Virus record (IMG/VR): IMGVR_UViG_3300043436_001683 | Span: 1 to 33,409 of that record | Direction: 5' to 3' (one strand) | DNA from: a virus | Length of the DNA stretch: 33,409 nucleotides | In this document: positions 3,607 through 32,030 of the stretch, piece after piece | Numbering within the stretch: position 1 is the stretch's first letter | Layout of the letters: the number at the start of each line of letters is the position of its first letter | Made by a program: the position numbers and the translations under genes | The notes under the pieces: generated by a model | What the model saw: the letters and a program-made list of their open reading frames with translations, nothing else | Databases searched by the model: none | What the model was told of the DNA's origin: nothing

Positions 3607-3924
3607 TTATTTTGGTTCTGAAATAGGAACACAGTTAGGGACTTCTCTACCATCCATATCTTTTGTTCCATATTGTTCGTAACCTTCCCAGCAAGGGTCA
3701 CCTGCATCTTTTAAGTTTATACCTCTAAACTTTGTATCATAGGCAACTCTTGCCATTACTTTTGAAGTCGTATCTTTTATCTTACTCATTTTATCTCTGT
3801 CAAATTCACCTTTACATACTGCATAGGCTTGACCTTCTGCATCATACTCAGATGATATTTGAGAAACACATCTTCCAATGTATTTGTCCTCAGTTTCGTT
3901 TGGTTGTGGTTTAGGTATTGGCAT
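3607..3924 (-). CDS. Two-motif phage protein, 105 aa
   Basis: The N-terminus begins MPIPKPQPNETEDKYIGRC and is followed by a short EYDAEGQAYAVC segment. This pattern (MPIPKP, E, C, EY, A-x-C) is one I recognise from short modules in Bacteroidota phage head or protease proteins. The C-terminus, DPCWEGYEQYG then GREVPNCVP, matches a second small recurring module (PCW-x-GY ... PNCVP). The conserved cysteines could bind metal. The function of neither module is known to me. It lies near the 3' end of the late operon, two bases after the PA14 gene. Confidence 0.6.
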   Translation of the reverse strand: MPIPKPQPNETEDKYIGRCVSQISSEYDAEGQAYAVCKGEFDRDKMSKIKDTTSKVMARVAYDTKFRGINLKDAGDPCWEGYEQYGTKDMDGREVPNCVPISEPK

Positions 3925-3926
3925 AA

Positions 3927-4808
3927 TTAAAATCCGTTTGATGATGAGTTATATAATGTTAATCCTGTGAAATTATTTGTTTGTGATATAGTTGGTGTTG
4001 AGAACGACATCGAAATATATTCTGCACCTAGGTTTTCACCCCATTGTATTCTCATTGGATATTGTGTTCCTGATATTAAAGCTATTGGACTTCCTGATAA
4101 AAATAATGGGCCTGGACTAGTGCTACCCATATTGATTGATGCAGTAGTGTAATTATTTATTGCATCATTTCCAATCCACATTAAAATTGCATCATCCGAT
4201 GTCACATCAAAAGTATAAGTTTCAGTTGTAGCAGGTTTGAAATATCCTAACCATTGAACTGATGCACTATCAATTGATGCAGTGAATCCTGTTTGTATAA
4301 CTCCAACATCGGCTACACCAGCTGAACGAGATACCGCAGTGTCAAACCAAGTTGGAACACCACCAAAATATCCATTATATTGAGTTCTAAATAATCCATT
4401 GGTATTTCCACCCAAACTAGCCGATGCTGCACTTACACTAGAACTAATTGTATATCTTACATTACTTCCTACTGTAAAGTTAGTGTTTAATGCACTACCG
4501 GTAGTGCTTTGATTATATAGTAAACTACCATCACTAGCAGAAATAAATAATGTTACAGAATTAGAAGAACTGATTGCAGTTCCTGCTATTGATGCAGACA
4601 CAACCGAATTAGGTGCAGCTAGGAAATTAGTAGTTGCAGATGCAGTTGTTGATAATTTAGTTACTGCATCATTTGTTAATACAAAAAGTGATGAACTATT
4701 TGTGGTATAACTTGCACTAACACTACTAGATATTAGTGTTGGCACAGCTCCTCTAATTACATCAGTTTGTATACTTTGAACTTGGTTGGTATTTCTTAAA
4801 TACAACAT
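3927..4808 (-). CDS. PA14-domain virion protein, 293 aa
   Basis: The first 120 residues are Ser/Thr/Ala-rich and beta-prone, like the other fibre proteins of this phage. From about residue 145 to the end there is a PA14-like beta-barrel: YNGYFGGVPTWFD, then WLGYFKPATTETYTFDVTSD followed by DAILMWIGNDA, then YPMRIQWGENLGAEYISMSF. In PA14 and GLEYA families this fold binds glycans. A role as an adhesive surface or tail protein recognising host polysaccharide is likely. It sits with other small structural genes downstream of the prohead protease. The plus-strand ORF inside it is a shadow. Confidence 0.7.
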   Translation of the reverse strand: MLYLRNTNQVQSIQTDVIRGAVPTLISSSVSASYTTNSSSLFVLTNDAVTKLSTTASATTNFLAAPNSVVSASIAGTAISSSNSVTLFISASDGSLLYNQSTTGSALNTNFTVGSNVRYTISSSVSAASASLGGNTNGLFRTQYNGYFGGVPTWFDTAVSRSAGVADVGVIQTGFTASIDSASVQWLGYFKPATTETYTFDVTSDDAILMWIGNDAINNYTTASINMGSTSPGPLFLSGSPIALISGTQYPMRIQWGENLGAEYISMSFSTPTISQTNNFTGLTLYNSSSNGF

Positions 4809-28823: not shown

Positions 28824-29372
28824 TTATTCAAACGGATTATCTAATACTTCTTTTAAATACCTTCTTATCTTTCTAACTGCAAGAAATACAGTTGACTTAC
28901 TTATCTTTATATCTTTTGCTACTTCGTCTAAAGTTTTATCTGTTGATGTCCAATATATTTCAAAAATTCTGGCACTTGCCCACATCTTTGTTCCACTTAA
29001 TCTTTTTAGTTCATTCATTACATCATCATGTCCATGTTGTAATCTCATATCACCTTCTATATCATACTCCTCTTCTACTTCATCTGTATCAATAGGTGTG
29101 TCCGTTATGACTACCTTATTAAGTTTCTTTACTTTATTAATCCATCTGCTTTCTAAAAACTTATAACAATAAAACATATGATATGCATCTCCCCAAAATA
29201 TCTTTTCATTACATTTCTTATTAAGATATTCATATAAGTCGCCAACTAAATCCTCTGCCTCCTCTCTTTGTTTAGTCAACTTTAATGCATACTTAATCAA
29301 CCAACTATGTGAATTAGTATATAGGTTGACTAATCTTTCCTCACAATTTAAATCTAAACTACCCGTTAGCAT
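28824..29372 (-). CDS. RNA polymerase sigma factor-like protein, 182 aa
   Basis: Likely redirects host RNA polymerase to phage promoters. Residues 20-50 (WLIKYALKLTKQREEAEDLV) resemble sigma region 2 of ECF-type factors, and residues 146-172 (KTLDEVAKDIKISKSTVFLA) form a region-4-like helix-turn-helix. The linker between them is acidic (about 95-110). Sigma-like proteins of this sort occur in other Bacteroidota phages. It is encoded in the middle operon, which has a host-type promoter, and precedes the late genes, which have a different shared promoter motif. It overlaps the 69-aa gene by 14 nt. Confidence 0.65.
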   Translation of the reverse strand: MLTGSLDLNCEERLVNLYTNSHSWLIKYALKLTKQREEAEDLVGDLYEYLNKKCNEKIFWGDAYHMFYCYKFLESRWINKVKKLNKVVITDTPIDTDEVEEEYDIEGDMRLQHGHDDVMNELKRLSGTKMWASARIFEIYWTSTDKTLDEVAKDIKISKSTVFLAVRKIRRYLKEVLDNPFE

Positions 29373-30748: not shown

Positions 30749-30934
30749 TTATAATTTTATTCCATCTGGACATCCAAAGAATGCATTCATTGCACTCTGT
30801 CTTTCCTGACATCCACATGATTGTTTTTTGAATACTTTGATTGCAATCCATCCTGCAATATCTTTGGCTCTACCTAAGAATACAATATCTAACACTGCTG
30901 ATACTATATTTCCAACTTTAATAATGCAAATCAT
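30749..30934 (-). CDS. Small membrane-associated cysteine-motif protein, 61 aa
   Basis: The first 36 residues are hydrophobic or amphipathic (VGNIVSAVLDIVFLGRAKDI and AGWIAIKVF). The end carries SCGCQERQSAMNAFFGCPDG with Cys40, Cys42 and Cys55. Short phage proteins with a membrane-like start and a CGC-x-x-R-x-x-x-N-x-F end are widespread, and their role is unknown. It overlaps the HNH gene by one base. Confidence 0.6.
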   Translation of the reverse strand: MICIIKVGNIVSAVLDIVFLGRAKDIAGWIAIKVFKKQSCGCQERQSAMNAFFGCPDGIKL

Positions 30935-31344
30935 TACTTCTTACGATTTTTAAGTGGTTTATCTATGGTGTGATACTTTATTAGATTTTCTGACTGAGTT
31001 AACATTTGAAGATTTTTTAATCTATTATCATCTCTGTCAGTATTGATGTGGTCAATAACCATACCTGTTGTAATAGGACATACAAAACTTTCCCACATTA
31101 GTCTATGACCATACATAATATGTCTTTCACTCATATCATCATAGATGTTAAATGTAACATAACCTAACTTACATTTAAGAGGATTGATTTCTCTGTAATT
31201 GTCAAATAAAGGTTTCTTACTATTCTTAGCAGGACTTGAATTTGCTTTAGATACTAATTTACCTGATGTTGAGATTAAATACTTTGTGAATTGTATTCCA
31301 TTGTAGGTTGGAACTACCCATTTTTCTTTTTGAGTTGTGCTCAT
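30934..31344 (-). CDS. NUMOD4/HNH endonuclease, 136 aa
   Basis: DNA-cutting enzyme of the homing type. A NUMOD4-like part (KEKWVVPTYNGIQFTKYLIS, then SGKLVSK) is followed by an HNH_3-type domain: GYVTFNIYDDMSERHIMYGH, then RLMWESFV and VIDHINTDRDDNRLKNLQML, with the DH pair, Asn and Asn of the metal-binding site, and a SENL-x-K end. I choose the internal Met at 31344. The longer frame to 31395 would begin inside the promoter (31404-31373), upstream of the expected transcript start. It is the first gene of the middle operon and directly follows the ncRNA locus. Confidence 0.75.
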   Translation of the reverse strand: MSTTQKEKWVVPTYNGIQFTKYLISTSGKLVSKANSSPAKNSKKPLFDNYREINPLKCKLGYVTFNIYDDMSERHIMYGHRLMWESFVCPITTGMVIDHINTDRDDNRLKNLQMLTQSENLIKYHTIDKPLKNRKK

Positions 31345-31372
31345 TTTTAATTGTTTTAAGTTTATAATACAT

Positions 31373-31404
31373 TCAATATACGAAAATAATTTCATATTGC
31401 CAAA
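31373..31404 (-). promoter_or_regulatory. Host-type (Bacteroidota) promoter of the middle operon
   Basis: On the minus strand TTTG, a 20-nt spacer, then TATATTGA. This matches the -33 TTTG and -7 TAnnTTTG elements of the Bacteroidota primary sigma factor. It lies 20 nt after the end of the ncRNA terminator. About 29 of 34 bases match the promoter at 31999-32030, including the ATTTTCG before the -7 box. Confidence 0.75.
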
Positions 31405-31423: not shown

Positions 31424-31468
31424 AAAAAAAATAGCCTAGTCTGAATGGCACAATAAACAGACTAGGCT
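31424..31468 (-). terminator. Strong Rho-independent terminator of the ncRNA
   Basis: On the minus strand AGCCTAGTCTG, a 14-nt loop, CAGACTAGGCT: a perfect 11-bp stem (31458-31468 with 31433-31443), followed by A and a tract of eight T. It ends the noncoding transcript and insulates the next promoter. Confidence 0.9.
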
Positions 31469-31992
31469 TTGTATTATAAAATGTTGCACTCTATATAATA
31501 ATGCTAAGTAGCGATAGAGTATTAATTAAGCAACATATAGTTAAAACATTCTTTTTCAATTTTGTATTTACTTTTTAAAATCTTTTTTTACTTTATTAGT
31601 TTTGCTTAGTGCTTTACTTTCAGGAAGTTACAACTTTTTTTTGATATTTCCAAATAATTCTTAAAGTATTTTCACTTCAGCAATATAGCTTTACTGCTTA
31701 ACTGTTGCTGCATTCGTTTATGCAGAAGATTTTGTTCAGTATTGAATACACTTATTCCATAAGGTAACTATACTCTTCACAAACTATTTAGATATCCTTT
31801 ATCCGTATGTTGTGAATGATTACCCAGAATAAGTGTAGTTCATGCATTTAGACTTCATCCCAGCATTGTTTCCACTTTGAACTTTCGTTCAGTAATGATT
31901 TACACATTACACTCCACTTACTTTGATTAAGCACCCATTGTGGGTTTAACACATATCACTTATCATTTCGGATAAGGGTAGTAAGTTACCTA
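31425..31992 (-). ncRNA. Candidate large structured noncoding RNA, about 570 nt
   Basis: An ORF-free stretch flanked by a host-type promoter and a strong terminator on the same strand. The RNA strand can form many perfect helices: hairpins at 31959-31976 (6 bp), 31927-31949 (5 bp plus a bulged 4 bp) and 31892-31910 (6 bp), directly abutting 31878-31891 (5 bp with a GAAA tetraloop). It also forms a long-range arm of nested helices 31827-31837/31747-31757 (11 bp), 31820-31824/31763-31767 (5 bp) and 31810-31816/31776-31782 (7 bp); a hairpin at 31708-31725 (6 bp); and a 3' arm 31530-31536/31481-31487 plus 31514-31520/31488-31494 (7 bp each). The size and position, in a phage with no ORF, recall ROOL or GOLLD RNAs, but I could not match their consensus from memory. 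Confidence 0.75.
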
Positions 31993-31998
31993 TGAAAT

Positions 31999-32030
31999 TA
32001 AATATACGAAAATAAATTTAAATTACCAAA
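31999..32030 (-). promoter_or_regulatory. Host-type promoter of the ncRNA
   Basis: On the minus strand TTTG, a 20-nt spacer, then TATATTTA, followed by AAT. Transcription should start near 31992. It begins just after the terminator of the left operon and is a near copy of the middle-operon promoter. Confidence 0.75.

Follow-up and report, generated by a model that had tools for sequence, protein, structure and literature searches.

Organization of the locus

The window analysed in this study (33,409 nucleotides) is a linear IMG/VR virus record of a tailed phage, with its larger open reading frames (ORFs) almost exclusively on the minus strand. Terminase and portal genes were identifiable. The closest isolates at the portal level were Nonlabens phages (33% identity), and a DNA search for near relatives among phage isolates yielded only matches up to about 50 nt. 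A sigma-factor-like neighbour protein (28824-29372, minus strand), with weak PHROG and Pfam matches, occurred in hundreds of viral contigs and was absent from phage isolates and from the bacterial and archaeal species genomes searched.

The stretch of interest is positioned between a gene for a 97-aa protein (32404-32111) and an HNH homing endonuclease gene (HEG), and the features described here are all on the minus strand. It begins with a promoter-like sequence, P1 (around 32030-32001, TTTG-N20-TATATT), followed by a structured 5' module that is exchangeable between phages, module A (31706-31996), a conserved internal promoter-like sequence, P2 (31625-31654, TTTG-N20-TAACTT), a conserved small-RNA core (31477-31541) and a terminator hairpin with its T8 tract (31424-31468). 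Just past the terminator lies P3 (31375-31404, TTTG-N20-TANNTT pattern), the putative promoter of the endonuclease gene. The latter (30934-31344) matched Pfam HNH_3 (E 8e-14) and the HNH endonucleases of PHROGs. Its listed ORF (30934-31395, minus strand) begins within P3, and the likely true start is the ATG at 31344 (MSTTQKEKW).

A previous sequence-only reading had proposed that this stretch encodes one structured noncoding RNA, about 570 nt long and equipped with a promoter and a terminator of its own. The elements it listed were found on the minus strand: TTTG-N20-TATATTTA at 32030-31999, a perfect 11-bp terminator hairpin (31468-31433) with eight T behind it (31431-31424) and, between promoter and terminator, no ORF above 34 aa (the longest has a GTG start, and module A varies too little for a codon test on very short ones). 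The 573 nt exceeded shuffled sequences in folding stability (z -3.7), but the opposite strand did likewise (z -4.2). Folding energy alone therefore does not show an RNA and was set aside as evidence.

The TTTG-N20-TANNTT pattern occurred at ten sites over both strands of the window, an overall count not above chance; three of the five minus-strand sites (P1, P2 and P3) fell within one 656-nt stretch. P2, which the sequence-only reading had overlooked, is located inside the supposed RNA, so that transcription as one 570-nt unit cannot be taken for granted. Promoter-like sequences recurred in relatives at fixed distances from the core: -111 to -115 for P2, -49 to -51 in short forms and -40 to -42 in one divergent group. 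Elements resembling P1 were encountered before modules A, B and D, farther upstream of the core (-489 for A, -357 or -258 for B and -392 for D). In L003 (1-420), a small ORF was observed between P2 and the core, so that P2 is probably a real promoter.

A new family of putative phage small RNAs

Relatives were gathered via neighbouring proteins and DNA patterns. A covariation check on related phages, already suggested in the sequence-only reading, revealed a signal for the 3' core. Its architecture consists of a helix, a one-sided bulge UUAANNAAU, a second helix and then a hairpin. In the window (cmsearch match of 67.6 bits), the outer helix pairs 31536-31530 with 31487-31481 and the inner helix 31520-31514 with 31494-31488, both separated by the bulge UUAAUUAAU (31529-31521).

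Alignment A2 (27 sequences, 13 pairs) had 98.6% of its cells paired and a covariation score of 0.81, against 0.19 in shuffled alignments. The same alignment displayed 106 double-change cells compared to 31 in shuffles, and sliding the partner by 1-3 columns abolished the signal. With an E limit of 1, model R1, built from A2, returned 64 matches over 100 loci and 63 over a second, partly new set. The matches in the second set comprised 55 distinct sequences, and the family at least as many. Among these 55, 97.0% of 711 cells were paired and covariation reached 0.90 (0.24 when shuffled, at most 0.17 when slid), values obtained on an alignment fitted to R1, for which reason A2 is the cleaner covariation test. 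The outer helix was represented by 38 different sequence pairs and the inner one by 26, while the one-sided bulge measured 9 nt in 49 of the 55 sequences, mostly as UUAANNAAU.

Neither the window nor its relatives contained a match above gathering score to any of 4227 Rfam families, save two tRNAs elsewhere in L116 and L143. Models for ROOL, GOLLD and other RNAs gave nothing relevant even at E up to 10. The core pattern was matched twice in bacterial genomes, and model R1 rejected both (E 5.7 in one case, no match in the other). Judged from these comparisons, the 3' part is a new, putative small RNA, widespread in uncultivated Bacteroidota-type phages, the family having been seen in one group of them. 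Counted from P2 to the terminator, it would measure about 190 nt in the window; many relatives would have a shorter form of about 130-150 nt.

A HEG was present in all 56 loci with sufficient upstream sequence, and 49 of them displayed a model match. Among the remaining seven, L198 and L209 possessed a similar seed hairpin, the core of L198 looking diverged by eye.

The terminator loop and endonuclease starts

Almost every core match was followed by a hairpin of free stem sequence whose loop contains UGCCAU or UGUCAU; variants were few (UGCCAG, UGCUAU, GGCCAU and UGCCAA). This seed hairpin doubles as the terminator in most loci, and in the window its loop is UUUAUUGUGCCAUU (31457-31444). Over 1.1 Mb of loci, selected by neighbouring protein, terminator-hairpin loops contained TGCCAT 37 times and TGTCAT 10 times, compared to 0 or 1 for each of nine control hexamers.

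In sequence, the loop is complementary (antisense) to the HEG start of the same locus. The match was first spotted by eye and then scored as the longest stretch over which loop and gene-start region were perfectly complementary; genes were classed as HEGs when similar in sequence to nine seeds. Over 56 non-redundant loci, the scores of the best HEG starts summed to 415, against 279±8 for as many non-HEG genes of the same loci (maximum 313 in 5,000 draws). When loops were swapped between loci, the real arrangement scored 402 versus 333.5±9.6, and none of 20,000 permutations was as good. A difference persisted when swapping was restricted to loops sharing TGCCAT (269 versus 246.6±6.4; 13/20,000), indicating a contribution from bases beyond this motif. 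Both tests held for 27 loci, one for each HEG cluster at 60% identity, a selection that controls locus relatedness in part only: HEG starts scored 199 versus 141.5±6.3, and none of 20,000 swaps was as good. HEGs on the opposite strand, taken alone, gave 116 versus 81±5 (17 loci), and all genes within 2 kb, with no HEG selection, gave 477 versus 437±8.6 (0/10,000).

Matches extended over 8-12 nt in, for instance, L085 (AAGAUGGCACU, 11 nt), L127 (AAACAUGGCA, 10 nt) and L093 (AAUGACAAAAAA), and 34 of the 40 matches of at least 7 nt spanned the ATG. Of the rest, some were located in the leader just before it: AAUAGCAA in L117, facing a changed loop UUGCUAUU, and AAAAUGACAAAA in L180. These argue against attributing the complementarity entirely to start-codon usage. 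The HEGs concerned belonged to the HNH_3, NUMOD4-HNH and GIY-YIG types, so that the RNA goes with the site and not with a single enzyme family. No good loop match to the own HEG was found in L116, L148, L167, L168 and L197.

In the window, loop UUUAUUGUGCCAUU could pair with AAUGAGCACAA at the HNH start (31335-31345) over 10 bp with one bulged A (predicted RNA duplex of -10.1 kcal/mol). Three other gene starts of the window outscored the HNH start against this loop, and AUGGCA is a common gene start in these phage genomes. The predicted pairing in the window is by itself weak evidence, and the proposed target rests on the family.

Exchangeable 5' modules

The 3' part was found behind at least four different 5' sequences, designated modules A to D. 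Module A was carried by the window, L077, L063/L068 and L116; module B by, among others, L058, L059, L071, L085 and L147; module C by L061; and module D by L127, L118 and L126. In other relatives, the 3' part followed an endonuclease gene (L064) or came straight after an ordinary gene (e.g. L093, L095, L110 and L202), and in some the 3' RNA stood alone (about 150 nt). L085 and L202 had core, seed hairpin and HEG start in common, with module B in L085 only. On these comparative grounds, the RNA initially described is a composite of a 3' small RNA and an exchangeable structured 5' module. The original claim holds for the promoter and terminator as sequence elements and for the covarying 3' core; a single RNA of about 570 nt appears doubtful, considering internal P2 and the separate inheritance of the 5' and 3' parts.

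The first 140 nt of module A were nearly invariant among four phages (alignment A4), including L116, whose sigma-like neighbour protein displayed only 58% identity. RNAalifold on these four phages recorded four pairs with double changes, and columns 203/213 presented three pair types, which supports a hairpin arm. Two mutually exclusive long-range pairings, both nearly invariant in the four sequences, are conceivable: 31994-31980 with 31774-31758, or the 11-bp arm. The palindrome GATATC, for which kissing between RNA copies had been suggested as a possibility, spans loop and stem of the hairpin arm and lies partly within the covarying stem; three relatives displayed GATACT, GATACT and GATAGT, and the kissing loop was rejected for this lack of conservation. 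The swapping of 5' modules suggests that module A is an accessory domain of a longer P1 transcript. It may also be an independent RNA, or a DNA element.

Module B (alignment A3, with L004, L048, L085, L147 and others) displayed a 5' GAAA hairpin of varying stem, followed by two G runs (GGGGGGUAAGGGGGG), and appears to be a structured element without earlier description. Its RNAalifold fold contained just one pair with double changes. Modules D (L127, around 3900-4290) and C (L061, upstream of the core) were long ORF-free stretches at the same place, by eye unrelated to A and B.

Proposed function and alternative explanations

The small RNA is probably a trans-acting antisense RNA repressing translation of the homing endonuclease in the same locus. 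It would be transcribed from P2 or its short-form equivalent, and the core would fold into a scaffold that may bind a protein or lend stability. The terminator hairpin would expose the seed loop with UGCCAU or UGUCAU, which would pair in trans with the endonuclease mRNA issued from P3, at its start codon or immediately upstream. Since a start codon covered by pairing is usually closed to initiation, repression rather than activation is assumed; with its start region covered, the endonuclease would be held back by a built-in repressor. P1, where present, would give rise to a longer form whose structured 5' domain is exchangeable (module A in the window). Features of trans-acting small RNAs are present as a conserved secondary structure, as promoter and intrinsic terminator at the level of sequence elements, and as a presumably exposed seed complementary to, and co-varying with, target starts, the latter statistically and weakly in the window alone.

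Bacteroidota small RNAs such as GibS bind their target mRNAs by pairing close to where translation begins. Unlike these, the candidate is phage-encoded, has its putative target in the same locus and carries its seed in a terminator loop. Restraint of free-standing homing endonucleases is known mainly from cis hairpins of T4-like phages. Here a whole phage group appears to rely on a small RNA of its own, with a seed that varies along with the endonuclease, even for genes on the other strand. The RNA family is new and would exemplify an RNA regulator that evolves alongside a selfish gene, in phages of hosts where phage small RNAs are hardly described. CfrI of cyanophage S-PM2 is likewise a phage non-coding antisense RNA adjoining a HEG, with proposed antisense pairing (Millard 2010, described in PMC12197685). 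CfrI is linked to psbA, in contrast to the present family with its conserved fold and a short loop seed changing with the HEG start.

A further-reaching reading, somewhat less likely than not, views these loci as a transferable 'endonuclease plus antisense RNA' unit. A fixed fold with a re-programmable terminator-loop seed would restrain the resident HNH or GIY-YIG HEG, and exchangeable 5' modules (A-D, each an undescribed structured RNA) under a second promoter would tune or redirect it.

A broad regulon, in which numerous phage or host mRNAs starting with AUGGCA or AUGACA are targets of the loop and the endonuclease is only one among them, seems unlikely. It would account for the retention of UGCCAU in very different phages, but non-HEG genes in the same loci matched far less and loop variants track the HEG start. 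A divergent replication-type gene in L106, L107 and L148, starting with AUGGCACAUAUG or AUGGCACACAUAUG, also begins with AUGGCAC and displays a 7-10 nt seed match in favour of such a regulon; it may be a second target.

In phage T4, hairpins cover the start region of the I-TevI, segB and mobE homing endonuclease mRNAs and limit their translation (PMC2988022). The candidate resembles these systems by a phage RNA structure that would act over a HEG start region and by a promoter near the gene (PMC2988022). A similar cis control, with the loop on a read-through transcript pairing with the downstream endonuclease start while P3 transcripts without the loop are translated, would agree with the position of P3 between loop and start in same-strand loci, as for I-TevI and mobE (PMC2988022). 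We nevertheless consider it quite improbable: the 17 opposite-strand HEG loci match too, so that a cis version fits same-strand loci only, and the loop sits in a terminator. The T4 inhibitory arm acts in cis on the same transcript, whereas the present loop would belong to a separate small RNA serving opposite-strand genes as well.

Less probable still is a loop that is bound by a protein or merely aids termination, the start match being a by-product of common AUGGCA starts. Such starts are common and the motif is very constant, but neither the swap among TGCCAT loops nor the leader matches outside start codons (L117 and L180) would be expected from this.

The antisense small RNA is also preferred to a single large structured RNA spanning about 570 nt, whether as a divergent cage of the ROOL/GOLLD type or as a comparable new class, which is hardly credible: size (the P1-to-terminator length fits the 580 nt or more of ROOL and GOLLD), phage origin shared with these non-coding RNAs (PMC12286853), a fold stabler than shuffles and conserved module A speak for it, but the candidate has no covariance-model match, its conserved part is small and can stand alone, P2 is internal, 5' modules are swappable, the palindrome is not conserved and the window is devoid of the tRNA genes often found near ROOL and GOLLD. 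A group I intron or an RNA-guided nuclease, brought to mind by the adjacent HNH gene, was rejected, there being no Rfam match and the same RNA occurring beside unrelated HNH and GIY-YIG enzymes.

A further observation concerns the 97-aa gene, which in the window is not followed by any additional seed-like hairpin. In L048, L050 and L054, an extra hairpin with a seed-like loop (UUACUGCCAUUU, UUAUAUGCCAUC and UUAGUGACAUUC) was located just past this gene and before its terminator.
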